Shown here: piece by piece, positions 19,708 to 57,800 of the stretch
Layout: each line of letters starts with the position of its first letter
How positions within the stretch are numbered: position 1 is the first letter of the stretch
Translations under genes and position numbers: made by a program
The notes under the pieces: generated by a model
Database searches by the model: none
What the model saw: only the letters and a program-made list of their open reading frames with translations
Told to the model about the DNA's origin: nothing
NCBI GenBank assembly: GCA_018292915.2
Contig: JACVVK020000005.1
Location: 4,760,001 to 4,824,000, forward strand
Direction of reading: 5' to 3'
From: Batillaria attramentaria
Lineage: Eukaryota; Mollusca; Gastropoda; Batillariidae
Length of the DNA stretch: 64,000 bases

Positions 19708-20099
19708 ACATTGACACACGAGCCCAACTCACTAGAACCCAGCACTGCCCGCTTACCAAATTCTTCGCCTTCCGCATTCTTGGTCGAATCCTTGGACCCA
19801 GAAGGTCTCAGAACGCCAGTGTCAGTCAGTGCAACCGATTGTCTGGTCAGAGCTGATCAGTAGACATGAGATTGGATCCAGACAGCTCCTGTGCTGCTGC
19901 TGCTGCTGCTCCATGCCACAGTTCAAGTCTCCACATCGCTCTTCTGTTTCTTGCCGACTTGAATGGTCAACCGGCGATGACTCGGACCGGAGCTGCCCGC
20001 CGGCTGCCGGCCCCCTGGACACACATCATCAAACGCAGCATAAGTACTGACTCGCACCTTTAGGCCACTGAGATGTAGTCCACTCTCTAATTATCAGTC

Positions 20100-21000
20100 C
20101 CGGATACCCACGCTTCGGTTACTGCTCACAAAGGTCTTCTCCACTTGGCAACTGGGTCGAGTCACGTACTGAATTGCCCCTCATAGACTCGCGCTGCTCT
20201 GGGATACTTACCGAATTTACCTGCCCGTTGGTCGTATAATGACCTCGTCACTGACTGACTAGCCCGAGTGACTAAACTGAGGCGACTGAAAGACAGCTAG
20301 AGGTCGAATGGATGAACTAACAGTGACTGTTACTTCCCGGACTCAACTCAGTTGAGAGACGACTGACGTCATATTACGTATGTCTTCGCTAGACTTTAGT
20401 GATACCAGAGACATAGATAAGATCTTATCTATGTCTCTGGTGATACTGATTACGTGACTTTTCAAGGCTTTTTTGTTGTTGTTGTTGTTATTGTTAAAAG
20501 CTAATTATGCTTGTCTTAGTGTCTGATTTTCAAATATCGGTCGATAAACCATGGAAAAGAAACATCAAAACAAACTGAATCTATGTTCCTTCGTTTGACT
20601 GGTCAGTGTTCATTATCAAGGACTGAATGGCCCGCCGGAGGCAGATTAGACGGTCACTGAGTGGAAGGGGCAGAGTGAGAAGTTCGTCAGTGACATCGGG
20701 TCCGAACCAGTCACTAGTGAGACTCATCAAGTTGTATTTTACTATCCCGGCGCCGAGGCAGGCCGTTGGCAGACCGTCAGTTTCATGTACTGATCGAGTG
20801 ACTTAGTCAGTCAGTGATCTATGTGTTCGTAAGTCACGAAAAGTCACAGGCGTGCCCATGCCTTTCGTCAGTGTAAGTCACAATAGGTCATCACCGAAAG
20901 TACGGTCAGTTCCCCGCCCACCTTTTTTGCCGGCCGGCGCCGCTTGAGCCACTGCGGACACGCAGAGGACAAGTTCACCTCGTCACTGAAAAAACACACA
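20100..21000. other. CAGT/ACTG-enriched intergenic DNA
   Basis: Unusually frequent cagt, actg and gtcactgac motifs scattered across the interval, not in strict tandem. No gene. See findings. Confidence 0.4.
20404..20441. repeat. 38-bp perfect palindrome flanked by 7-bp direct repeats
   Basis: accagagacatagataagat and its exact inverse, centred on gatc. The gtgatac sequence occurs at both borders (20399-20405 and 20440-20446), overlapping the palindrome tips, which resembles a small inserted foldback sequence with target duplication. Confidence 0.8.
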
Positions 21001-21339
21001 CACACGGCACAAACCTGAAAACTTAAAAAGAAGAAAAAAACAAAACACTTAAACACTTCCAATTTTACATAGTCTCGCTGCCAAATGCCCAGTATCTGTT
21101 TCAAACATTTAACAAAGTAATCGAAGTGAACTGAAACTGAAACACAGTTTGCTAGAGCCGGGGGGCCGAAAATGGACTGTCTCAGTAAGTAGAGCACCGG
21201 CGGCCGCTTTCGCAGGTGTTCTGCCGGCGTACAGCTGAAGAATGGACGAAGAGATATGAACGGTTTTTGTGGGTCTCGCGTTGAGCAAAATTTGTGTGTG
21301 TTCTTCTGAGTGCGTCTCATTCAATACTAACATCAAACA

Positions 21340-24300
21340 ACTTGATTATCTTTGTTAATGAAATTCCGATGCATTATTCATTTTTAGCGGACGGCTGCAG
21401 AAGTACCCCATAATACTATGATGACATCATTCACTTCCGCGATATTAATGCGCACACACCTGCATTTTTTAAAAGACCGCTAAGTAAAAAGAAGTTCTCC
21501 CCACAAGAAAGTTAATACAGACTTAAATTGAAAAGCTGAACACCGTTTTACACTTGATAGTTTGAACTACTCGAGTAATTACAGTTGTGTGGGGGGACTA
21601 TTTTGTTTATGCATGTGCTACCTCTCCGCCACCGTTAGCAGGCTCGCGTCGGGTTCCCGCAATCTTCTGCAACCTCCCCGGTAGACTTACTCCTTGTGCA
21701 AGCTTTACAATTCTATCTACCACTGGAATTCTTGGATATTTCAGAAACGGATACTGTGCGGTCCGATCACTAAGGTGAGAATATTCATGCGATCAGAGTT
21801 TCGCTGCTGCAAACATCGGAATTACAACCTGATGCTTGATGGCAGTCGACCAACATGGCGTGTAAGGAGCACCGGTGTGTGTGTGTGATTTGTGCTCTCA
21901 GAAGGATCGATACACGCCTTTTTCGTTCAGATCCGAATGTGATGATTTAAGCTGCTCTTTTTTAAGGTATACCCAGTTCGATGTCATCGCTTTAGTGCCT
22001 ATTTCGTCCCCAGTTCTAGTCTGTGAAGGTGACCCGTTTGGGCGTCCTCAATCCCAATAAAATGCAGCAAATGCTATGCAGCGGCTGTGCAGGAGAGAAT
22101 GAGTCAAATTTATGTTGAGAAGCGTCGGTGGCAAACTGTTGTCTGGTTTGCACAGTAGGCGAGCAACGTTTCTTTTGTCTGTGACCGGTTAAGAGTCCTA
22201 GTCAAGTGTGGATTTCACTGCACCGGCTTTGAAAAGGATCCTGTTTGGAGTAATATTCAGTGGCAGCTTTGCTGTGTGGAGATGTAGGCTGTGTATTGAC
22301 CTTGCTGTGTATGCTTCAGTCAGTGCCTGGCGGTGGATGTCAGGACAAGGCCAGTGGATCAATGGATGTGCTGCGATCTGGTTCAGTCTGTGGAATATAT
22401 TGAAGCTATTTCATGTGGTAACAGTAAGGCCCATGCTGAATAACAATCCTTGCAACTCATTAGAGAAAATAAGGTTTGCCCACCGTTCCCCTGCATCTTT
22501 GTTGATACCACATGTATTCTGGTTCTCCTGCACCTCTGACTCGACTCTGAGGTTGATCAGGTGTAGTGTTGATTGGTGCCATAGTGGGTGACTCATACAG
22601 TTGTATGAGTTGTTTTCGATTTCCATCATGGTCAGCTTCCAGTTCTTTGAAGTTAATCACCGGCCTAGGCTGATTGTGATAGATTTTTGTAATAAATTAT
22701 ATTGATGAAAATTATATACGGGGAAGTTTGTGTTTCAAGTTTTATGAATGAATAGCCCATCTACAAAAAGGGAAAAACAGCAATTGACGATGCCCATTGT
22801 GGAGGATGCAGTGCGAGCTCATACCCTCTTAGTCTAGGTCTTACTCTTAGTGAAACATCAGATCATAACATCTCAGTCTGTGGGCAGAATCAGAATTTAC
22901 AGTCTCATTTTATGCCCATTATGCGTCCATACTCCAGGGCTCCCACTTTCCTGCGATTTCGTGGATTTCTGTGAAAAGTAATGCCCCCAGATCGCCCTTA
23001 ATGTGCATGCATACATGTCTATTTTGCCTGTACGTACTTGTGGCTCTGCCACTTTGACTTAGAAGACATGAATTGTTAACTGGATTTTTGCTTTTCCACA
23101 CACACACAGTACCGTCCCAGCTAACTGTCACCTTGCATACATGATTCAGAGTGTGAAGGACTGAACGCCTACCCACATTCCTTACCAAATTTGTTTTGAA
23201 AACATTGTGTTCAGGACTGACAGCGCTGGCAACTCCCAGCTAGTACTAGTAGTAGCACCTAGTAGGGCTGCACTTGGTGTTTGTTTTGATTGGAAAGCTA
23301 CCCACACAAAGGTATGCAATGTTTAAAAAATTCCATATTGGCCAGTGTGACAGTGCAATGGTCAAGAAGATGTTGACACTACGGCTGTCTGGGCGTCACT
23401 GAAGCGCCAGGCATAGCCAGCCCAAGCAGGCCCCAAAGTGGTGGTCACAGGGCTTTATGAAGATAATCCCCCGGCTATTAGGGCTACAGTTTACTCAGCT
23501 AACTTACGTAGGGGTCAGGGGTTTTGCTGTGCTGTGCATCTTGATTCAGAAATAGCACCTCCTTTTAGTTCAGTAGTGGTTGAATGGAAGCAGTGAAAGT
23601 TCCGTCTGATGGCTGGAGATGATATATCGGTAAGCTTTGGCTGAGCTTCCTTCAGGGGGATATAAACCAGAAATTACGAATGGGAACAAACGTGCTCGGC
23701 CAAAGGAGCCGGCAGTCCCCCTGCCAAGACCGTTGTTACTATGTTAGTGTTCCTTTAGTTTTGGCCGCTTCCACTAGTTCGTCACTTTGGGGGTGGGTTG
23801 ATCTGAACGATATTTATTATTAGTGTTATGAGCCTTTAATTTTGTTTTGATGGTGCGAATTAAAGATGAAAATTAGACCAGCTTCTCAGATAGAGTGAGT
23901 CAGTCTCAAGAGTGAGTGAAATTTGGTTGTATCTGTGGCTGTTGTGTAGTAGTGGGTCATGCAGACTTAATAATTATTACTCAAAGATCTTGTTCCAGCT
24001 TTGTGTAGGGACAGTGTGTGAAAATTTGGGAGGCATTGCAGTGTTATTGACCTCAGGCGGCTTTTCCCACTAGAACAGGTGTAGTGAGAGGATTAAGGTA
24101 GACATCTAGGTGAAACTGGATTGGAAAACACAGAAAAACAACACACCATGTATCCATAGGCATAGGTGTATACAGTGTACTAGTCAAATACTACATTTTG
24201 TACTGGCGTGTTGAAAAATGGCCTGTTCCTATACGAATTCCAGGTCAGATTGTTGTTATTTCCTCCTGACAAAGGCAGTGCCCTCAGTTCTTAGGCGAGG

Positions 24301-27049
24301 AATGGGGTAGTGATACTGGTATTAGTAGTAGCAGCCCGCGCTCTCTCACGCACATCCTCCCCTAAAACCTCCTTACTGCTCCCCGCAAAACATGCACTGG
24401 ACCACAGAAGCGCATAGTTTAACTCTTTGACGACGAAGCACAATTTCTAACACGTGATTTCCTATAGGAAATCGCGTGTTAGAAATTGTGCTTCGTCGTC
24501 AAAGAGCTAACTGAACAGTAAATGGGCTAACTGGGCTGTTGTGCTGTTACTATGGGAACCAGGTGGGGGAGAAATTCACGCTTACATTCCAGGTCAGAGA
24601 GCAGAGGGGGAGCATAATGTGTGGCAAGATTGACGGCTGGAAGAGTAAATCCATTATGACCCTAAGCAGCAAGTGCAACGCATCTGCAGCTGTTTTCTCC
24701 TCAAACTGAGGTTATATAAATCCCACCGTAGCTTGGAGCTCTTTTGAAAAGCATACTGCTTTTGAAATATTACCTGAAAATGTGAAATGCGGCGATAACC
24801 GACCAGTTCGATGATCACCCTGTACGATTTAAACAATGTTGGTTGCTGTGTGATATGACTGAAGCATTTCATCAAAGAATTCACAATAGAGCTTTATGAT
24901 TCTTATTGATTCAGATCTACATGTGTAGTCCTGATGATGATGCTACATGTATGCGGTGATGAAGAATGCTATCAACTCATGAACTCAGAACTCATACCCA
25001 TTAAGCAAAATCACTTCTGCTGTCGTCTTTATAGAATTTACATACAGTAGAAATAGTTGCCGCTCAGGACCATTCACCAAAATCTTGGCATACGTACACG
25101 TGTATGAATTCATGTATTGGTGCTCTGTAAGCTTAGACTGAGGTTTAACTGTTATCTTCGGTCAAACCCAGGCTTACATTATAAATCAGAATTCAAATCA
25201 AAACACCCTGGTGTCAACGTGCTTCTTCAAACTATTGTTAGCACGGTTGATGCGTCTGTATGCACCCTGTATTTGCCCTAAATCTTGGTTGATAAGGGCA
25301 TAAAGGGGATTTATTCAGGAGGGGTAATCTGTTGACACCAGCAGAGACTGTTGGGTACTGACTGGTATTTGGTTGTCTCCCATGCACCATAGACTGTACC
25401 CCTACTCTAGTGGGGAGAACTCGTTTCATGCACTCCTACATGCTAGGTATTCTCAGATGAGGGCACACACGTAATTTAGCAGGACTTTGACTTGGTCTTA
25501 AGTTGCACTTCTGTGTCATCATTGTGGTAGGAGGTAGGCGATACCAAGCTGCTTTGAACTGTACTGATAGTGATAGTGATACTATTATTTCATACACTGG
25601 TCAAGTGTACTAATGGTACAAGGGGCATGGTCTGCCAGGTGCATAAACAGCACGATATTGCTGCTCATTCAAGATGTTGATCTTGATTTCTTGTAGGCAG
25701 TGACATCCAGAAATTGTTTGAAAATAAGCACTAGACTTTAGAACAAAGATTGTGTGCCACATTACCAGTGATCGCTATACAGTATGTATCATTGTATGAC
25801 TGACTAAAATTTCATGGTCTAACCAGTGAGTAAGGTTTGTGACATGGGTGATCTTGGTTTGGCAGCTGCCCATCAAAGAAGTGCCCATACCGGCTACACC
25901 TGAATCAGCAAGGCTGACAATAGCTTTTGTAGTGGTACTGAGTACTACATGTAGTAGTAGTAGTGGAACCATTTGGAAGGCACTTGTTCCTAGACCTCAC
26001 TTGGCTGTGTCAGTCTTTTGCTGTGCACGTCTTTTGGAAGTCAGACTTTTGAAGCTTTGCGTATTCGCTGATATAAGCACCTTGGCGCAATGCTTCTGAC
26101 TTGCTTCCACATGAATACTAGGGTACACACTACACAGTAAACCTTGGCTGTCAGTCCGGGTTATTACATTTTAGTTTTGGCTGATTGTCAGAATGAGTAG
26201 AGAGCATTGAAAACATCCCCAAGCAGCGAGTGGGACCCCTTGCTGTTGATTGTGTCTGTGGACATAAAAGGCACACAACACTGTATTGGGGGCACAGAAC
26301 TGGATGTATGAGCAGTTGGAGTTCCCAGGGCCCTCACGATGTGGGATATATTGAAATTGCCTCTTCACATTTAAATTCATGGCCGGGCTGCCTGCCATGA
26401 AAGGAATGACTGAGCGGTTGCTTTTTTCCACCCTCATCGTGAAACCCAGCGGCGGTGTGAATAAAGAGTGCTTTTTAAGTGTGTGTGTATGAATGTCTGT
26501 GTGGCACATCCTGATGTTAGGGCAGTCTAACTTGCTTTTTTGAAGCGCCCTGTTTAGGTGTTACAATGGGTTGAATTTGTTTACAACTTGCCTGTGAAAG
26601 CCAGTGTAACTATAAGTAAGTGCGCGTTAAACCGGGTTCGACATTTGATAGATTTATTCGCTGTGCTGTAACACTAACAGTGCAGTGCATTTTGTCACTG
26701 AAAAGTGCGGGGATTACATTTGCAGCCGGCAATCTCTACAACTGTACAAGAACCAGGAGCTTGCTGTATAATGGAGCATCGGTTGAATAAGCTTTCTGTG
26801 TCTTTTAAAAAAAAGAAAAGTATCCATTCATGTTTCATTCATTTCTTTCTTGACATTTTCTGCTTGTTGTCATCATAGCATTTCTACAGCTCAGAGTCAG
26901 AGTCAGAGTCAGACAGAGTCCAAGTACCGTACATGGATAGTCACACTGTGTATACATGTTTTGTTTTGTTTTTCAAGGGTTCATTTAAAAAGTGGTTTAA
27001 CATTGAAAATTTTACCCTGTTTCTAATGTTTTCTACATTGCTCGTGCAG
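21340..27049. other. Upstream region of beta-spectrin; must contain or flank the 5' noncoding exon of isoform 1a
   Basis: No coding sequence supported. Because exon 1a begins with a splice acceptor, a 5'UTR exon and promoter must be here or further upstream. Candidate donors such as aag|gtgaga at 21775 cannot be confirmed. The only strong structure is the palindrome at 24421-24508. A short (cagagt)n tract lies at 26890-26915. Confidence 0.4.
24421..24508. repeat. 88-bp near-perfect palindrome (hairpin)
   Basis: Two 44-base arms meet at cctatagg (centre 24464/24465) with no spacer. Only two positions mismatch (24422/24507, and the T/G at 24455/24474, which could wobble-pair in RNA). Arms include tttgacgacgaagcacaatt. 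Could be a foldback MITE or a hairpin RNA source. No protein coding. Confidence 0.85.
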
Positions 27050-27202
27050 GATCGTGTGGGTGTGAGTGAGGTGGCACCATGACCGAGATCGAGTCCTTCG
27101 CCAACTCGGTCCGGTGGGACCCGGGCCAAGTGGACGAGGACTTTGATGCCGGCAACAACTCCTCAAAACTCTTCGAACGCTCCAGAATCAAAGCCCTAGC
27201 CG
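27050..27202 (+). CDS. SPTBN1: Beta-spectrin exon 1a (5'UTR end plus start codon, isoform 1a)
   Basis: The exon follows an acceptor (ctcgtgcag) ending at 27049, so a noncoding 5' exon must lie further upstream; I could not place it. The ATG at 27079 has A at -3 (cacc-ATG). It encodes residues 1-41, including VRWDP and the [16 protein letters not shown] segment that precedes CH1 in fly and vertebrate beta-spectrins. The coding part is 124 nt, so it ends in phase 1; donor gtaagt at 27203. The split Asp codon (G|AC) is completed by exon 2. Confidence 0.95.
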
Positions 27203-30200
27203 GTAAGTGAAGCAACGAGAAGTGTCAAAGTTTGTACAGCATCGCTTTGTTAGTCTAGTGCTTTCCTGTCCCACCAGTTCAACTTCAAGATTTGTGTTTT
27301 CACAACGCCTGGCATGAACAACAGCTTTGTTTCATACCTGATGATACCAGCAATCCAAAACTTTCTTTTGGTATCCATCCACGTGTTGAGAATGGAAAAA
27401 AAAAAAGTTACAGTGGGTAGGCAAACCGGTTTAGAGTTAGCGATGCCGTGAGCGTGACCCTAGAACTGTAGAAGGTGACATGAAAACTGAAACTGGATAA
27501 GCGTAGGTACTTCACTGCTTGCCAGCATTACTGTAGTGTAACTTAGCATAAGGACTTAATGTATACATGTGACACTGCTGTCCCTACTACTGTACTAGTG
27601 TGACATGTCAGGTACTGTGACAAGCCTCACAAGGGTATGACTCACAGTCACACCTAGATAAGTTGTTACCTGATGGGTCGCAAGATGTCACAGGCAGTCA
27701 TTAGGGCAGTTTGTCACAGTCAGTTTGCCTTGGTACTGCTTGCAACATTAGCATTTAAATTAGGGGAAGTCATGCAGTTAATCCAGCACATTTTCATTGC
27801 TCCCTGTACTGCACACACAAAAGACGGACAAAAATTCCCTCGCTACCTTAAGTTGTGTTTCACAGCTTTGCACTGTATACATGTACATACTGCCTGTTCT
27901 TTGCAGGATTTTTGTTTTAGCAGTGAGAATAAGTCCAGTCATGTCAGGTGATAAGGAAGAAGAGTGGGTGGTTTTGCAACCATGGGAATTACTACAGGTT
28001 TTACAGTAGGGTTACTGTACCTTAGCCCTTCTAGTAATTAAAAGAAATGGAGGAGGGGGGGGGGTGTGTGAGGCAGTGGGCAAGTCTTACTTCTGCAGCT
28101 AAAAGAAATTTGAAATAATAAAAACGTGACAAATCTGCCGGTTACCGGGTAATGTTAATTAAAAATGCAGTGGTTTAACAACAACACAAAAACTTTTCTT
28201 CAGTATTTTGAGCTTGACTTGTGCATCTCAGACTGTGTATAGCACTCAGTTCAAGGCCTTTTTGAAAGAGGCGGGAAAACTCAAGGGTGTTGATTTTGGA
28301 ACAGGAGTGAAAATAGACTACTGATAGCACAAACTTGGTGTCCCCATTCCAATGACAGGTGTCAAACAGCAAACGAGGCCCTGTGTCTACAGTCTTCTAC
28401 GCAGAGTTAAAGCACAGAGGTCCTCATGGCTTGTTTGATGCGTCAACTCTCCCTCCCCTCCTAGCTTAACAATATGGTGTTTGTCGGTTTGTTTGGCTCA
28501 GGTTCATTGTCCCGGCAAAAACACTAAACTGTGGGTTATTGCCATTTCACTGAGTGAAGGGGATTCTGTGTTCCCGCCACTTTTTTTATGGCTGAACGGA
28601 TCGCCTTGAGAAAAGCTGATCCTTGGTTGATAAGAGGTTTTCATGCAAGTGTGGCGGTCACATTTACCGATAAACTGCAATGTGCATTTGGGCTAGTCAC
28701 TAGGAAATGGGAAAGAAATTTTGCAAGCAGATAGGATGTAGTGAAGTTTGAGCAGAGGGCAATTTAAGGGGCGTACTAATGCTCAGTTGGTATAATTCCC
28801 CCGATTTGCACTCTTCCAGTTGGAACAGAGGGTGCATTGTATTACATGTATACATACAGTACTTGTATGCCTAACATAGCAGAGAAGAGCACCCCCACTG
28901 TCTTCAGCATGTAACACCCAGATCACTGTGATTTGCACAAAACAAGTATAGCAAGTAATTCATTCTTTGCACAACCTCTATAGATCTTTAAAAAATTATA
29001 CATAGAAACAGGAAAAAACATCTGAAAACGGAAGTCAGACAACACAGAGCAAAAATAGATTTTATCGGCAGAATGTGATGGATCATCGTTGCTGTAAATA
29101 GCAAACAATCCCTTGGTTGTCCATGGCTGATTTACTTCCTCATGCTGTATAATGTGTAAAAGCTGATCCACAGATGGAAGACACTATTTACATTATAAAG
29201 GTAGGTTTAACAGTAACAAACGCATTCCATTGATACGTTGCATTGCAAAAGCCTGGTGTGGTTTCTTTATAATACCAGATCTTCTATGCAGAACACACCA
29301 ACAGACAGGCACACACAGCTGAATTACCTTTGGTTCAGGGAAGAGGCATAGTAGAGTTGTTGCTTGAACACCCTGGCAGGACTGAAGACTGGTTATGTCC
29401 AGGACTGAAGACTGGTGATTTCTCCCCGCATCTGTAGCATTTGGCGTGTCAAACAGTCCCCGTTGCACTGCATACTTATCACACAGTTGAACCAGCGCTG
29501 CACTTGGTTGTTACTCTGCAATTTTAGTCAACGGAAGCTGACAATTTCGTGTCATCAGGGGGGTCCTCCCTTGCCAAAACTACCAGTCCTGACATTTTCA
29601 GGGCCGACATGGGCTGTCACCTACGGGCTTACCACTTGATCTGCACAATGTTTTCTAGCCCTTATATGGTCCTTCACATGCTGAACCAGCACGCCACGGT
29701 ACAAAAAACACAAATGTCACCCGTTCTGCTCGCCTGCTAATTCACAGAGAATAATAGAGATTTTTTCTGAAGCTCAGCGTGTCGCCCTGGTAGCGGGGGT
29801 TTCGGTTTTCTGTGGTAGACCGCGGGGCGTCACCAGTTGACTGTATGGTGGTGAAGGATACCACAGAATTTGACTCTCAAGTGGCGGCTTAGTTGGACAG
29901 GATGCCGTGTTTCCTGACAGGCAACGCATGAGATAATATTTCATGTGACGCCGGGAATAACCTTGCGAAGACGTGAACGGACGCCCCCTGTAACTGGGTT
30001 ATCTCGCCGGTTTAATGTTGGGTGCAACACTTTTCGCGGCTGGCTTCGAGGTGGAGAAATTGTGTTCAATTTGAGCAGGAAGTGAGCGCAAAGTGTCGTT
30101 ATTGGTAAAACTGTGTGAACCAAGAACCACTTGTTTCGCCGCCCACAAGGAAATAACGTAGCTGCGCGTTGTGGAAATGTGACTTCACATAGTGGTTTAG

Positions 30201-33200
30201 CTGTGCTTTTAACTGTTTTGGGAGTTTCGCACCACCCCCTTTTTGCCGATGAAATTAGGAAGGCAAGATGGATAATGAAATTACAAGTGCAGCTTTAAAT
30301 GAAGATCGTGTCATCAAGGGGAAAATTAAACAGCTCTCAGGTAACTTGCAGACTATTTTTTCGTCATTATGTTGTTGGTACTACTGGTAGCACATGTATA
30401 CAAACTTACAAAAAACTGCCGTACCCTTTTATTAGTGAATTGCTTCAGAGTTGGTGACCTAGATTTGAAATACCACACTGCTTAGTAGTGCTGCCACTTT
30501 GACAAGAGTTGTCAAAGGTGCAGATTTTATGACTGATGCCTGTTTGGTGTGCTGAATTGTGCCAGTTGGTTTATTACCATAAAGAGAATATCAAATTCTG
30601 AGCGTTTTGAGGTACAGTGTACATAATCATTGCGGCTTAAGTTTTTTGGTAAATGTACACATTTCCTTGTGTTTATAGGCAGTGCATAAATTTACAATCC
30701 AGCCGTCCATCACTCCCCTAATTTTGTATAACAAGTAAATTTCGGGGGGGAGGGGCTCACTTAAATATTGCAGTTGTAGTTTTGTTCTGCCTGTCTTGGC
30801 TATACAGTATCCCAGCAGCATTGTATGTAGTGGCAGCGGTGGTGTAATTATAAGGGTTTGGGGTGACCTTAGCCTAGTAGTAAATATTTAATTGGCCGCA
30901 TGAGAACACAGCTGTGATACAGCTTGACTCAAACAGGAGAAAATACACCCCCCCCCCCCCAAGTCATGGCTTTCAGTCCTGTTACAGTCATGTCACTGAG
31001 GCGTCTATGAATAGTAATTAGTATAGCATGTTATTATATATCTCGGTCCTTGAAACTTGGCAGGCTGAAAATTTCACCAAGTTAAAGCACTTGCAATTTG
31101 CTGTAGTGGTGCAGATTATTCCTGCATTGAGTTTTTACTGCTTTATCAGGACGTGTTAAATTTGTTTTGCTATCGAGAATATTTACCTTGCATAAATTTG
31201 CAGGGTACTGGGTATTAATGCTTTATTTAGTTTGTAAAACTCTTTCCTTTGTTGAAATTTCCTCAGTAGGTTAAGACAGTTGAGTTCGCGGTGATACATA
31301 CATCATTTGCAGTGCATACATGTATACATGTATGTACAACTTTCTTTTCAAGACGTAGCATTGACCCTGTTCGACTTTGAGGCTGGAGCTGTTGCAGTTA
31401 TTATGGGGTGGGGGTGAGGGTGAGGGTGTCTTGTTGGTGATGGTGGTGGTGGTGGTGTTTGTTTTGCTGTACCCAAACCTGAATTAGGTATCATAAGCAT
31501 GGTCAAATTACTCTGGAATTCTGGCCTGTGCTGAATCAGGTTGCACAAATTGTTTTAATTTACTGGTGAGTGATATAATTTTGATATCATCTACATTGAT
31601 TCTTTGGAATCTCATGATCAGAATTGTTCTTTGTTTACTTTCAGACGAGAGAGAGCTTGTGCAAAAGAAAACATTCCAAAAATGGGTCAACTCCCACCTC
31701 ATCCGAGTCAACTGCAAAATCAACGACCTGTACGTGGACCTCCGAGATGGCAAGATGCTCATGAAGCTGCTGGAGGTTCTGTCTGGAGAAAGACTGGTGA
31801 GTTTGTTTTGCCTCTCATGTATCAAGTCGTTGTGGTTTAATTCTGTACTTTTGCTCTGTTAGAAATATTTTCACTGTGTACATTATATATAAGGCAGTGT
31901 TCAGTGGCCCAAACATTGCCGTACAAAATGGGCCACTCAGACTTTGAAAGAAGTGTATTTCAATTTGAGAAGCAGTATAAACACTGGTGACAAAGAGCAG
32001 TATTAGAGCTTGCATGGATGTGTTTTCATTTTCAGCTGTGTTTTTTAATGTTTTAATTTTTTTTTATATACCTCAAATTAAAAAAAGTAACATTTTTACA
32101 AATGCCAGTAAAGAGAGAAAATGTTTGTCTGTAAACTGTACTTTGTTTTTGCTTTAAAAGATAGTGAACCCTGTGTGTGGTGGTGGTGGTGTTGGGTTTT
32201 TTTGGGGGGGGGGGGGGCGGGGGGGGGGGGGGCACAGTGGCTTCACTATGAGGTGGGGGGTGGGGTGTGCACAATGGCTTTGCTATGGTATCTCCAGAAA
32301 CTACCCCTACAAATGAGAACAGCTCCAGTTGCTTCGTTTTGATCAACTGCTCTTGTGTTGCAGCCCCGGCCCACCAAAGGCAAGATGCGTATTCACTGCC
32401 TGGAGAACGTTGACAAGGCCTTGACCTTCCTGCACGAGCAGCGCGTGCATCTGGAGAACATGGGCGCTCATGACATTGTTGATGGCAGCTCTCGGCTGAC
32501 ACTTGGTCTCATTTGGACCATCATCCTCAGGTTCCAGGTAGAATATACTTTTTTGTTGTTGTCATTAATAATTATGATTTAAAAAAAAAGTATATTCAAT
32601 CCCTGCCCAAGTAAGGTCTAAGTATCTTACATGACGTTAAACTCATTTTGACAAATAGGACGTACAAAAGGACATTATTAAGAAACACTTATAATTGTAC
32701 ACATCTTGACATGGAACCCCCCCCCCCCCCCCCAAAAAAAAAAAAAAAAAAAGGTCTGTAGAGGAAGAGTAAATCAGTTTAAGTAGCTTGGAGATATTTT
32801 CAATTGTCATTCACCTTCGAGGTTTGCTCTGACCTATTTGTTTCTTTTGACCCATTTATGTGAATTCTGACATTGAAACTGGAGTAGCCGGCATACAACA
32901 AACTTCTGTGTGTGTGTGTGTGTTCAAGGAAATGACCCTACTTTGCTGGAACACATGTACACATTGTTGTCGATGGTGTGACTAATTTGCTTTCAACTGT
33001 TTTCCTCAGATCCAAGACATCATGATAGAAGAGGTTGACAACAGTGAGACCAAGTCGGCCAAGGATGCGCTGTTGTTGTGGTGCCAGATGAAGACGGCTG
33101 GATACCCCAACGTCAACGTACGCAACTTCACCACCAGCTGGCGAGACGGTCTCGCCTTCAACGCCATCATCCACAAACACAGGTCAGCTGGTTTAGCAGT

Positions 33201-35044: not shown

Positions 35045-36772
35045 TAGTGGAATGTCACTAAAACCTGTCCTTTTCCATCATGATTTCAGACCTGACCTGA
35101 TCCAGTATGACAGATTGTCCAAGGCCACCCCAATCCAGAACCTTCAGAACGCCTTCACTGTTGCAGAAGATTCACTTGGACTCACCAGCCTGCTGGAGCC
35201 AGAAGGTACAGCACAGGCTCCAGTGATGGAGACTTTTTTTTTTTTTTTTTAAATGAAAAACAAGTGGCTGTGAGGAGGAGAGGATGACCCAGTTTTTGCC
35301 TGCTGGTTGACCATTTCTGTTTTGGAAATGTTCAGCCTACAGAATTTCCAAATAAATGAACTTCTAACTTCTGAGACCTAAATACCTGAACTGATCCTTT
35401 GCACCGCACAAATGTGTTGGTGTCTGGTGTGTGATTCATGTAATTGTGTGTGTTGAGACAGAGTTCAGTTTGCAGCACTTTGAGTCAAGAAACTGCGATA
35501 AAGCACCTGTACATGTATTAATTCAAACATTATTATCAATATTATTATTATTATTAATACTCTGTGGTTTGTCGGCTCTTTGTTGTACGGTTTTGTTACG
35601 TGGCAAATTGTCCCTTGCTTTAGTCACAACCATTTTTTCTGGCTTGTAATTTGCCCTTTTTTTCCTGTCCTTTTCCTCTGTCAGATGTTAATGTTGAGTA
35701 CCCAGATGAGAAGTCCATCATCACCTATGTTGTCACTTACTACCACTACTTCTCCAAGATGAAGGCAGACTCTGTGCAGGGCAAGAGGATTGGCAAGGTC
35801 AGTATCTACTGCTCTAGCACAGAAACATGCTTGCACACACACAGGCTCGGACAGCAGGGGTTATGAAAGCTGAAAAATCTTGCTAGTCCGTCGGGCTAGT
35901 AAGATGTAAAACCAACTAGCCCGAAACCATTTCCACTAGTCCAAAAATGCATTTTGTCAAATATAGACCTATTTGTAAAAAAAAAGAAAAAAGATTCACA
36001 ACACTGTTATCGGGGGTAGAAATGATCCAGGATAAAAAAAAAAAGGAAAGAAGAGTGGCGAAGCCACGTCTGCGTAGCGCCAAAGGCGCCCTACCTAAGG
36101 GGATCCGGGGGCATGCTCCCCAGGGAAATTTTTTTAAAATCTAGATTAAAATCTGTGCAATCTGGTGCATTCTGACTGCAAAATTGCGCATAATCTGGGA
36201 TGAAAAATTTCAGAAAAGATATGTTTTTTTGTTTTATCAGACCATCAAACAACTTTGTTTTTGTGGTCTTCATTCAATTTCACACAACCCTTGAAAGAGC
36301 ATGTTCCCCACAATGGCAATGCTTGAGGTCACTCATGCATCATTCAGACTACTCTCAACTTCAGATAAGCCATGACACTGATTTACATCTCTGAAACAGA
36401 TTTTTGTTCTACAGTAGAGCCTCACGGCAACTGAGTTGGTCGCTCAAGTCACAGACACTCACGGTGGTGTCCGGACCACTCCGAGTCCCCGGGAGCGCAT
36501 GTCAACCGTAGAGATCATGGCATAATAAATGATAATTGGTACAAGCATAAATGTGACTCAGTAGCAGAGTCTGGTGTTTCTGTGGAGTCTTTCAGCAGTC
36601 AAGATTGTGTGACTTTACCTAACTTGAATTTGCGCGAAGGATAACGTGTCCGAACGGCGTACACTGACATCACGGCGTTGCCGATGTGCTGTCATTCAAA
36701 TCACTGAGTTTAGTCCGGTTGAATTGCAGCGGCATCACAGTCTCTCCCTTTCTCTCACCGTCACCATGGCAA

Positions 36773-36817
<45 letters not shown>

Positions 36818-39800
36818 TCCAAACGACGCACACACCGAGACATCCCGGCGTTGCAGATTTGCTTAGTGTCAAATCGCTGAGTTTAGTCCGGCTGAATTCG
36901 CAGTTTTCTTTATTGTCAAACACGAAAACAAGGGGGCCGGATTAGTACCCACGCGATACCTATCAAATATCCGCCTTAATTCGATCACACACACCGGCAC
37001 ACAAAGAAACACGTTCACACGCACCGACATACGCGTGATAGGGTGTCTTGTGAAAACAATGGTCAGTGATTTGACAGGTGTAAAGGACGTCGGAACTTTC
37101 GGATGAGGTGATAACTACCCGCAGAGCTGCAGTGGAGCTTCGGGGGCGATGCGCTAATTGCCCTGTCTTTGTCCGCGGTCACGCGTGCACAGTAGGGGGT
37201 GGGCCACACAAAATTAATTCGCTGTCTTGCCAGGACCGTATCGAGGGGAGATTTGCACCGTTCGCGGAAAGCGTACTACTGGGAATTTTTTTTTCCCGAC
37301 AGAGAGAGGGAGGCTCGCTGACAGTACCTTGTGCATTCAGCTCTGTGAAAATAGAGCAAGCTTTGCCTCGTAATCTCAACTAGTCCGGCGGGCCAGTGGT
37401 AAAACAATTTAACTAGTCCGACGGTATTTTCACTAGTCTGCGGGCTTTCGGACGAGTCTTTTCATAATGCCTGGACAGTCACACACATACAGAGTTACAC
37501 ACGCATAGTCACATACACAGCGACACGTACACATGCATGCACACAAAAAGCAACTTCGTATTTGATCTGTCTCCTTAAAAACGTTTGTATTGTTGAATCC
37601 TGTCAAGAGAATTAATAATGATTCTGTTTCAATGATTCTGTTGAATAAAATCATCGTCATGGTGGTCATGTAAAAGGTTTGAAACTGAAACTAGTGAAAG
37701 GTGAATTCTGTTGCCATTTTCTTGTCCCAGACTCACGCACGTTTAATTGGTAATTGGTATATATAATATTGTCTTTTATTGACTTTTACTGAAACTGTTC
37801 ACTAGATTTACATTTAGTTTTATCTCTTCATTTTTAGAATGTGCGTACATTTGTGTGTGTTTTGTTTGCGTAGGTCATTGACAACGCCATCAGCACAGAG
37901 AACACCATCGAGGAGTACGAAACCTTGACCTCTGACCTGCTGGACTGGATCGAGCAGACCATTGTCATTCTGAAGGACCGTCAGTTTGCCAACTCGCTCA
38001 CTGGAGTCCAGCAGCAGCTGTCTGCTTTCAACACCTACAGAATAGTGGAGAAACCACCAAAGTAAGATCTATTTCTTGCACCTTATCATAACTGTGTCGC
38101 CATTGATTGGCTGTACGTGAAAGGGGACATGAATGTTACGAGGAGAAATGAGCAAATCTAGTTGACATGTGCAAGACAGTTGAAACAAGGCAGAGCGAAG
38201 GAAGATTATCCTTGGACCTCTAATGGGGTACAGTTTTTATCTGTATAAATGGAAAAGTCCAGATTTGTTGTAAAAGTCAAGTCATTGGACATGGCATTAA
38301 TCGCAGCAGGGCGTGTGTAGGAACAGTCAGCAGCTGGGAGGTGTCAGCTTCACATGGATATATATATATATAATATGTATATGTGTCTGGTCACAGTTTC
38401 CAATTTCTAGGGCTTCAATCTGGTTTGTGATCAGAGTCTTCATTACAATTAGTTAGAAGTTCATCATATATGAATGTGTATCTGTTCTCTGTGGCTCAAT
38501 TTGTAATTTTTTCTTTTTTTAACTTTGCAGGTTTGACGAGAAGGGCAACCTGGAGGTGCTGTTGTTCACCATCCAGAGCAAGATGCGATCCAACAACCAG
38601 CGAGTGTACCTGCCGCGTGAGGGCCGCCTCATTTCGGACATCAACAAGGCCTGGGAGCGCCTTGAGAAGGCGGAGCACGAACGCGAGCTGGCACTTCGCG
38701 AGGAGCTTATCAGGTGTGTAGGAGCAGTCAGTTTAGTTCATCGTCAGTTCACCATTACTTCGTCACCAGTTCATCAGTCCATTGTTTCCGTCTGTTATAA
38801 CTTATAAGTTGCCCCATTATCATCTTTTAGACTGTTCCAGTGTTGGTGTGGATCACAAGGGCCCTTTTCAGGGCATAAAATCTTTCACCTTTTGGCAGAT
38901 TTCCACCTTTTGCTAAAAAGTCCCCCCCCCCCCCCCAAAAAAAAGAGAAGTATTTCCTCCTCTGAGGCACTTGAAGTCATGCCAAAACGCACCAAACTGC
39001 ACACATTTTTGTCTGATTCTAAAACGTTTCCTTCTGAAAAAGTGTCTCCTCCGCTGAAGCACTTACTGTCTTAAAATCATGCCAAAATCAGCACAGCACA
39101 GACTTTAGTCTATTTAAAAAAAAAAAAATAAAGGAAAGTTTGGGATAAGCATGCCTCCAGGCACCCCTAGCACAATGCATCTGTTTTGTATACACGAGCT
39201 ATTGGCTTCATCACGAAATACCACACACTTTTCCTCCTGTTGGATCATCGACCATTTTAAGCCCTTCCTTTCAGTGTCAGTCGTAATCCACTACCTCTAT
39301 GCACACCTCAGGTCTGCAGTTAACCAGTGGTATGATAACTGATGGTTTTGCTCCTGTAAGCTACATCTCGTATTCCTCACCACCTCTAATGTTTAAGTCA
39401 TTAGTACATGTAGTAGCACTGCTTTTGTGTACTTGGGGAGCTGGGATAGCTGAATGGTAGAGCGTTGGACTTTCCGTGCTCAGGCTGTGAGATGCTAGGG
39501 CTACATATTTGTGCTGGCACTGCTGGTCTTTTTCTTGTTGGCCTGTCTTTGACATCACCCCTACATGGTGGAAGAACCAAAAACTCCCGAACACCTACCC
39601 TTGTGTGTACTTGTTCTGCCATACATGTGCGTACGTGAAACTTTCCATTGCTACTGGTTATAGTTAAAACACTAACAGCTTGTACTTCCGTGCACTTACA
39701 TAAAACTTTTCTCCAATGCTTGTTATATTCAGAAAACTGACTGCTTGATTTTGGTCTGTAAAACCGTCTATGTTTCTGTCTTCCGCCAGACAAGAGAAAC

Positions 39801-54800: not shown

Positions 54801-57800
54801 TGATACCCTCCCGTAGATGAAGCCCGTGTAAACAACAGCGGATTTCAGTTTCTGCAGCCCCCTACCTTCTCTTTCACTCAGTCTGTGAGGAACCACCTGT
54901 CTTGGAAGATGTTCCAGGTTTTGTGGCGCAGTACTCAGTACCTGTTAAGTTCAGCAGCGTCTATTGTTGAATTCAAACTTGTGTAGCAGTCGGTGCTAAT
55001 AGTAGAATCCTTTCAGCTTCATTCGAACGGTTCTAAGCATGCTTCAGGTGGGAGCAGTAGCCAGTGCCTTGACGGTGGAGGAGTCCAAAATGGAGGTGGG
55101 AAAGGAAATGAAGTTTGTAGTTTTCTTACATGGCGTCTGCTCTGTACCCAGCATCGCCATTTCTAGCTCAGGTTTAGAACTTTCTCTTTTTGACTTAGCG
55201 ACGTACCTTTGTCTGTAGTTTTACAATGTATTATTGTCAGCACACTTCCTGGACAAACACATTTGGAAACGTGTTCGTCGTCTCTCTGCATTGGCTGACG
55301 TGAACAGTAAGGATGATTTCATGTGTGCAGAAGGATTGATCAGTATCGTTTACCTCGTTGCAGTTACGAGACTGGCTGGCCGACAAGATGGCCGCATCCC
55401 AAGACGAGACATACCGGGATGCCAAGAACCTGCACAGCAAGTACATGAGGCATCAAGCATTTGAGTCGGAGATTGCAGCCAACAAAGATCGTCTTGAAAG
55501 GGTCAAACAGGTCAGTCTGAATCACTGGCTTATTTTATAAAATATGCATTGTGTATAAAAAGTGTATCATAGATATAATTTAATTGATCTGTGGACATGC
55601 CTGAAAATGATGCCAGTAAATGCTACCATGATATGAAGCAGAAATTATTATGATGAAAATGTAAGTGCTGATTATAGGCGTTGTTGATAAGTCTTATCCC
55701 AGTTCTGGAGTGCTAAGGCCCGATGCACACGAGCGTCGGCGTCAGCACCATGAAGCAAGCAGCGAAGGCTGTCTCGCATCATACGCCTCGCGTGAGCGCG
55801 TGGTGTGCGCCGTTTGCATGCACACTTGGCTTCGGCGTCATTCGCCTGCACGCCTGTCATTCGCCTGTTCGCTGAGCCCACACTGCACGCGCTGACCCAC
55901 ACTGCTTTCTGATTGGCTGAAACCAAGTCTGCAGCGCGGCGTCAGCAGCAGAAATAGGACATGTTCTATACGCGGCGTCAAAGGATTCCGCCGCCTGGCA
56001 TCATTGATGCCGTTGCCTGTCGCCAGGCGCCGATGTCATGCACACGTGGCGGCGCCTTGAAACTGTCGCCGGGAGTCAGATCCGCCGCTCGGCATCATGA
56101 CGCTGACGCTCGTGTGCATCGGGCCTAAGCACTGGGGGCATCGGGGGTTTCACCATGAGGATAATTTTTTTTTTTTTTGGGGGGGGGGGGGGGGGGTTAC
56201 TGCTTAGAAACAGTCTGTACAAATTTTGGCCCTGTTGACAGTGGAGACTCAATGCACAGTTGGGTTACTTCTCTCCCCCAGTTCAAAGTGCTTCCATCAG
56301 TAGCTGGTTATATAGCTGTTTATTTTGAACTGCTTCAGTTGCAGGTTTGTTTTACTGGTAGAGGGATAGTTATTGATTTAAAAGAAAATTTTCATGTATC
56401 TATTTATTATTGTCATTATTATTATATTCTCTTTTTCTTTTTTTTTCAATTTTTAGGAGGGTGAGGACATCATGCGTGCCAAGCCCGAGACCCGGGAGCA
56501 GATCCAGCCCATGCTGGCCGACCTGGACACACAGTGGGAGGAGCTCGAGACCACCACCAAAGCCAAGGGCGAGAAACTCTTTGATGCCAACCGCTCCGTG
56601 CTGTATGAGCAGAGCTGCGATGACATCGACGGCTGGGTGACTGCTCTGGAGTCACAGATCGTGACAACCGAGGACTTCGGCAAGGACCTGACGACAGTCA
56701 ACTTGCAAGTCCAGAAACAAAACGTGAGTGATAGATTTTACTCTTCATTATTTTTATTTTATTTACCATTATGTATTTATCTTCGTAGCTACCATCTGAA
56801 AGAGCCGAAGTGTCATGGATTCCATAAGTACTCAAGCCATTTTGCCGTTTGACAGTAGATAGGGGGGTGGTTGCTCTTCGGATGAAGGGCAGGTCATGTG
56901 ACAGGGGCTGTTGGACACTAAACTCTTTCTTCAGTACATCAGCATGATCAAGACTGCTCCCTCGTCTTCTATCTCACAAGAGACACATATGGATGATACG
57001 CAGAATCAGAAAGGACTGGGTTGATTGGGGTGGTATATAGCTGGGCTTACTTCAGAAACACTTTGTTATCAGTCCTTTTGCCAGCCTCTTAAACAAACAC
57101 ATTGATATGCAACCATTATACAGGTGGCTACCCTGTGAAATCAGTGTATTGATGGTGTGTGTGTGTGTTGGTTTTTGTATAGCAACTGGAGAACCAGATG
57201 AAGATGAAGGAACAGCAGGTGCAGGAGCTGGAGAGCCAGGCAGACCATCTGCGCCGCATCGAGCCAGACCGCGTGGATGACATCGAGAAACGCAGAGCTT
57301 TGGTTGCCGAAAGGTAAGCCTGGTGTAACTGATTTACAAGATACCTTGAGACTGGCCGTATTTCACTGCGTAAGATTGTACGGGCCTTTTCACCAGACAG
57401 TTCAGACGTACTGCCATCTCTGTTTTGAGGATGAATGCTGAGGATTTGGAAAACATTGCACATGCGCAATATGAACATGCTGGTTGAAGACACTGTTCGT
57501 CTGCCCCCTTAGTCCTGTTTAGTTTTAGAGTTTTGCCAATCTGTAACGAACTTGCAGACAGCATATAGCCAGAATCAATTTTGGCTTGTAAGGTAAACGG
57601 GCAATGATACATGTCTTGAAGTCTTATGAAACTCAGTCATACTGGAGATTTGTCAGTTCGACAGCCCCTCTCTGGAGGGTGAAAGAAAAAATTGCAATCT
57701 GTTTAACCATCCTTATTTCTCTGCTGTTGCCCAGATTCTCCAAGATCCAGGCACCACTGATGTTGCGGCGATCGGCCCTCGACAAGGTGAAGCGCATACA

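Follow-up and report, generated by a model that had tools for sequence, protein, structure and literature searches.

In human beta-III-spectrin the helix formed by residues S37-A52 lies on F-actin and is continuous with CH1, which is taken to begin at D53, as set out in the structural passages of PMC8810934, and without its N-terminus this protein no longer binds actin (PMC8810934, PMC5676748). The same two papers describe the extension that precedes CH1 as needed for actin binding in vitro by beta-III-spectrin and, in fly neurons, as necessary for beta-spectrin to function. In plectin the alternative first exons (P1 to P1g and others) set location and tissue, according to the section of PMC8466646 that deals with them. 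The passages on SPTBN1 in PMC2764345 and PMC7757025 cover its short C-terminal form and general function and hold no treatment of a second SPTBN1 N-terminus, and among the listed open-licence papers on invertebrate spectrin or SPTBN1 we found no report of a second N-terminus in a mollusc spectrin.

Here we describe what is very probably a real and conserved alternative first coding exon, exon 1b, in the conventional beta-spectrin gene of the snail Batillaria attramentaria. The gene lies in a window of 64,000 nucleotides (the whole stretch of DNA that was analysed, to which all positions refer) and is matched by a hypothetical protein of the same species (P0007, 2409 aa), which maps collinearly by tblastn to 27079-63736, up to residue 2088. 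In 32 of the 39 collinear pieces identity is 87.7-100%; the other seven (46-80%) are probably alignments that overrun exon ends. The gene has a tandem CH actin-binding domain at the N-terminus (exons 1b to 3 encode the CH1 part and P0007 continues through later exons), a long spectrin-repeat array (seen in the collinear mapping of P0007 and in the precomputed spectrin and PH domains on that protein) and probably a C-terminal PH domain, which is present in the annotated P0007 and whose coding end lies beyond the end of the window. When the product of exons 1b-3 (133 aa, CH1 part) was compared with known structures, the best matches were beta-spectrin chains (8iah_M, E 1.6e-60; 6anu_f, E 3.6e-59). 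The features of the 5' part of the gene are collected in Table 1. Further downstream, P0007 includes a short exon at 55045-55098, inside a spectrin repeat, that P0002, a beta-spectrin model of the land snail Candidula unifasciata, does without, reading through (...QECDELRDWL); this is a candidate for either a cassette micro-exon or a gene-model addition.

Table 1. Coordinates of features around the classic and the probable alternative N-terminal exon of the B. attramentaria beta-spectrin gene (positions in the window).
Feature	Position	Strand	Remarks
Exon 1a, coding part, classic N-terminus (41 residues)	27079..27202	+	phase-1 exit, donor CCG/GTAAGT; 41/41 identical to P0007
CpG-rich stretch, candidate promoter region of exon 1b	29750..30199	.	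CpG observed/expected 1.08-1.16; putative promoter role
Upstream ORF, 8 codons, out of frame, C at -3, overlapping the start of 1b	30249..30275	+	
In-frame stop TAG, starting 12 bases before the 1b ATG	30256..30258	+	
Exon 1b, coding part, 24 residues + first base of D codon	30268..30340	+	donor CAG/GTAACT
Exon 2, common, start of CH1 (actin-binding domain)	31645..31796	+	
Exon 3, common, CH1 continued	32364..32537	+	

Exon 1b is 73 nt long and has its own ATG (at 30268), 24 codons plus one base, and a good donor whose GT lies at 30341. It exits in phase 1, as does exon 1a, and would join in frame the same acceptor exon, the common exon 2 at 31645. An earlier note on this DNA had described just such an exon, of 73 nt with an ATG, sharing the exit phase of exon 1a and in frame with exon 2, and its coordinates, phase and junction were all reproduced. 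The interval 20000-31640 of the + strand was scanned for ATG-open, phase-1 stretches of at least 10 codons followed by a donor that agrees with the consensus at 8 or more of 9 positions, and only exons 1a and 1b qualified. The start context is strong (A at -3 and G at +4), and the in-frame TAG upstream makes the ATG at 30268 the first start in this frame. The short upstream ORF could dampen translation of exon 1b; it would be in the transcript only if transcription begins 5' of it and there is no splicing at 30258. The 201 bases 30200-30400 have one match in the genome (assembly of 715,342,989 bases in 863 contigs).

The earlier note had also suggested that the 24-residue N-terminus be sought in beta-spectrin transcripts of other molluscs and annelids, and a counterpart was found in one gastropod, for the tail and the junction. 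A search with 1b and the start of exon 2 returned 23 proteins at E <= 10 among 26 candidates; one of these 23 relatives, P0002, has a 1b-like N-terminus, with the likeness in the tail only, and it should be noted that the database holds one representative per 90% cluster, so that the gastropod rows stand for clusters of up to 52 members and possibly hide isoforms. P0002, which is a partial model, begins with a non-classic N-terminus whose tail reads RxIKxKIKQLS; in the 11 residues preceding the junction there are nine identities to exon 1b, and the junction to exon 2 is the same. The two N-termini differ in length (29 residues from the first Met in P0002, 24 in 1b) and in their front halves, where the first 13 residues of 1b show no likeness to the Candidula front beyond that of shuffled sequences (1937 of 2000 shuffles do as well). 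In exon 1a conservation extends over the full length, with 32-37 of its 41 positions identical in the eight rows compared (seven named gastropods and one unnamed), whereas in exon 1b it is confined to the last 11 residues. The classic N-terminus is found in 10 gastropod rows, one unnamed row, the tardigrade row and eight hymenopteran rows of the 23, the hymenopteran row P0023 having it without its last residues; two hymenopteran rows have other, unrelated starts. Among 16 candidate proteins of about 231-735 aa, none had a 1b-like start at E <= 10. In the hymenopteran models P0022 and P0024 (Bombus pyrosoma and Lasius niger) the N-termini, unlike 1b, are non-classic and attach at this same position or beside it, that of L. 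niger reading MNYDKVVFDLRG-ERELVQ, and these starts are either more alternative first exons or model errors.

For comparison with chance, the 10-residue Candidula tail was scored against the open peptide before each GT donor on both strands of the window. Among the 1502 ATG-open donors the one at 30341 ranks first with a score of 35 (exon 1a 24, best chance site 14), and with the ATG condition removed it keeps the first rank among 5313 (17 for the best chance site). When the tail is extended to 14 residues it again comes first, scoring 42 against 24 for the best chance site. As a stricter null, 3382 spectrin-repeat 10-mers of P0007 and of human SPTBN1 isoform 2 (P0050) were used, and none reached 35. 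These figures bear on the suggestion that exon 1b is open by chance within the intron and that the N-terminus of Candidula comes from faulty gene prediction. By itself an ORF of 24 codons is indeed unremarkable, P0002 is partial and unnamed, and the two N-termini show no likeness in their front parts, but agreement at nine of 11 residues with the same junction is hardly expected of two unrelated intron artefacts, and we regard this explanation as highly improbable. A purely chance ORF was rejected on the donor ranking together with the lack of a rival exon under the criteria of the scan above. Candidula belongs to the Heterobranchia and Batillaria to the Caenogastropoda, and since these are different subclasses the tail of exon 1b, to judge from the two sequences, has probably been kept since they split.

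Where transcription of the 1b message would begin is a separate matter. Exon 1b had been said to follow a CpG-rich stretch, and this stands in part: the 300-base segments starting at 29750 and 29900 hold 21 and 20 CpG (observed/expected 1.08 and 1.16), but the segment 30050-30349, which holds the exon, has 10 CpG only and there is more CpG elsewhere in the window. For comparison, observed/expected CpG is 0.63 for the whole window, 0.14-0.56 in 13 intron segments starting at 27500-29300 and 0.09-0.59 in nine segments starting at 30200-31400. CpG content was not accepted as proving a promoter, since richer places exist within the 64 kb, with up to 30 CpG near 55.7 kb. Three other CpG-rich places besides 29600-30400 were compared with the window for repeats: 29600-30400 has no repeat partner in the window, whereas partners exist for those at 55.6-56.0 kb and 36.6-37.2 kb, and that at 10.4-10.95 kb has an 18-base inverted match. 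Between 29500 and 30267 there is one CCGCCC, at 30139, and no TATA, CCAAT or initiator motif. A bacterial-type promoter scan was set aside as uninformative for an animal gene. Of the repeat-bearing places, that at 55600-56133 has the window maximum (30 CpG in 300 bases) and an inverted pair of 36 bases, 94% alike (55709-55744 and 56098-56133), which suggests a mobile element in the intron; 36644-36903 is a CpG-rich direct-repeat pair, 79% alike over a 91-position alignment.

Two arrangements of the 5' end can be considered. On the sequence features above, exon 1b would have its own CpG-rich start region. Alternatively, exon 1b would be an internal 5' exon, to which a leader shared with exon 1a is spliced at the AG at 30257-30258, a conceivable 3' splice site picked by eye, so that splicing and not a promoter makes the choice. 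The sequence ccacccccttttt...attag/gaag does resemble an acceptor, splicing there would remove the upstream ORF at 30249, and exon 1a itself looks internal, a probable acceptor (tgcag, also by eye) ending at 27049, but the pyrimidine tract before the putative acceptor of 1b is short and interrupted, and the CpG-rich stretch directly upstream fits a promoter. We hold a shared leader to be unlikely. For the classic transcript, the acceptor-like sequence at 27049 and the CpG-poor sequence before exon 1a indicate that it probably starts further upstream. Exon 1b is very probably an alternative first coding exon of beta-spectrin, which may have its own transcription start nearby and would replace the extension before CH1.

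We infer the promoter, the expression and the actin effect of exon 1b, and the working proposed for them is as follows. Transcription that begins within the CpG-rich stretch (about 29.75-30.2 kb) or close to it would give an mRNA with 1b first, spliced 30340^31645, and a distal start would give the classic mRNA via exon 1a, spliced 27202^31645. As far as this exon choice goes, the two proteins would be identical from the D of DERE onward, and the extension before CH1 would be swapped whole: 41 residues with an acidic front and an SRIKALA helix in the one, 24 residues with a GKIKQLS helix in the other. The last 16 residues of 1b are basic (+2, compared with +3 in exon 1a), and 1b has no counterpart of the acidic front of 1a. 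The classic N-terminus (exon 1a; residues 1-52 of human beta-III-spectrin) occupies the same position as 1b and, in the part of PMC8810934 concerned with it, its helix is continuous with CH1. The snail exon junction is the A/D boundary equivalent to A52/D53 of human beta-III-spectrin, so that 1b replaces the pre-CH1 element and nothing else. Because the beta-III extension forms a helix on F-actin, the swap is likely to alter actin binding, and the suggestion in the earlier note that the isoforms could differ in this respect is plausible by analogy, the swapped part being the actin-binding part of the human protein. By the same analogy the swap would most likely tune how strongly or where actin is bound, or how this binding is regulated, and leave the remaining spectrin lattice unchanged.

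A second N-terminus of this kind is found in mammalian SPTBN1. Isoform 2 of human and mouse (P0050 and P0104) starts MELQRTSS and goes on to ...NQLEGRFKQLQ-DEREAVQ, and LEGRFKQLQ-DEREAVQ is present in all 120 matches listed (the best 120 of 477), of which the 113 that are named are all mammals; the SPTBN1 N-terminus ending KQLQ-DERE, named in the earlier note, is thus borne out for human, mouse and all matches listed. We take this N-terminus to reflect a second N-terminal exon in the mammalian gene. Like 1b, it is a second coding N-terminus joined at the same DERE residue before CH1, with KQLQ where the snail has KQLS; it has 36 residues as against 24 in 1b. In 111 of the 120 matches listed no PH domain is shown, and most of those have a length of about 2155.

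Scored as above, the last 10 residues of the SPTBN1 form give 23 with exon 1b, which ranks first of the 1502 ATG-open donors (next 17), and none of the 3382 spectrin 10-mers reaches this value. Exon 1a scores only 6 against the same tail, and 1b scores 13 against its own exon 1a. These values, together with the shared junction residue, support a reading in which exon 1b and the second N-terminal exon of vertebrate SPTBN1 are homologues, and the last common bilaterian ancestor had a distal classic start and a proximal one in the next intron, both leading to the DERE exon. Several points tell against it. With the ATG condition removed, a score of 22 against the SPTBN1 tail is reached by a chance site of the window, close to the 23 of 1b; in their front parts 1b and the SPTBN1 form show no significant likeness (233 of 2000 shuffles do as well); no 1b-like N-terminus occurs in the insect or tardigrade rows among the 23 relatives; and the named carriers of the SPTBN1 form among the best 120 of 477 matches are all mammals. 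Moreover, the tails do not sort cleanly. The Candidula 1b tail scores 16 against SPTBN1, a value reached by 11 to 15 of the 3382 spectrin 10-mers, but 24 against exon 1a (SKIKQLS against the classic SRIKALA), which none of the 3382 reaches. Common descent with the SPTBN1 exon is accordingly a tentative proposal that we think doubtful.

The alternative is that the second N-termini of snails and of vertebrates have separate origins, the phase-1 intron before CH1 allowing any short exon with a new promoter to be spliced on. A basic helix continuous with helix A of CH1 would be required of every such N-terminus, so that the tails converge on K/R-hydrophobic-K-x-L, and they do form a loose group (RIKALA, KIKQLS, RFKQLQ); a structure search with 1b and exon 2 also aligned 1b, with a gap, to the classic N-termini of two spectrins. 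The Candidula match to the classic tail supports this view, as do the variety of N-termini before CH1 among tandem-CH proteins, which differ greatly in those considered in PMC8810934, and plectin, with a common exon 2 before the actin-binding domain and at least nine alternative first-exon N-termini in the account given in PMC8466646. It is even conceivable that 1b of the snail arose long ago by duplication of exon 1a, although in this case the likeness is limited to the tail, the front being no better than shuffles (1264 of 2000). The closer match of 1b to the second SPTBN1 tail than to its own exon 1a stands against independence. Since the 1b tail of Candidula resembles that of 1a at least as closely, a shared need of the pre-CH1 helix explains the snail-SPTBN1 likeness equally well, and within ten residues of tail common descent, exon copying and shared constraint are inseparable. 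For the proposal of the earlier note that a two-promoter layout predates the vertebrate-invertebrate split, what holds is that the likeness between the snail and SPTBN1 tails exceeds chance expectation, and what weakens it is this resemblance of the Candidula tail to the classic one. On balance we favour independent origin, without pressing the point, as more likely than common origin; both are compatible with 1b being a real first exon.

Whatever its origin, exon 1b is a coding exon that is missing from the one Batillaria protein seen, P0007, which is the listed protein of this species and starts with exon 1a. A second pre-CH1 extension conserved in snails is a natural swap of an actin-binding element and offers a simple test of what the extension tunes. 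The finding would be of more interest if exon 1b were present across Bilateria. If the vertebrate SPTBN1 form is the same exon, the switch would be more than 500 million years old, this being the age of the common ancestry of snails and vertebrates. That beta-spectrin has had two alternative actin-gripping N-termini since that ancestor, as an ancient bilaterian switch and not a vertebrate invention, is a possibility to which we give limited credence.

Plectin is another gene of the wider superfamily and has at least nine first exons, compared with the two seen in snail beta-spectrin; targeting by the first exon is a feature of plectin. By analogy with plectin, the place before the CH1 exon is one that readily collects alternative first exons, and exon 1b is of a kind already known from mammalian spectrin and plectin.
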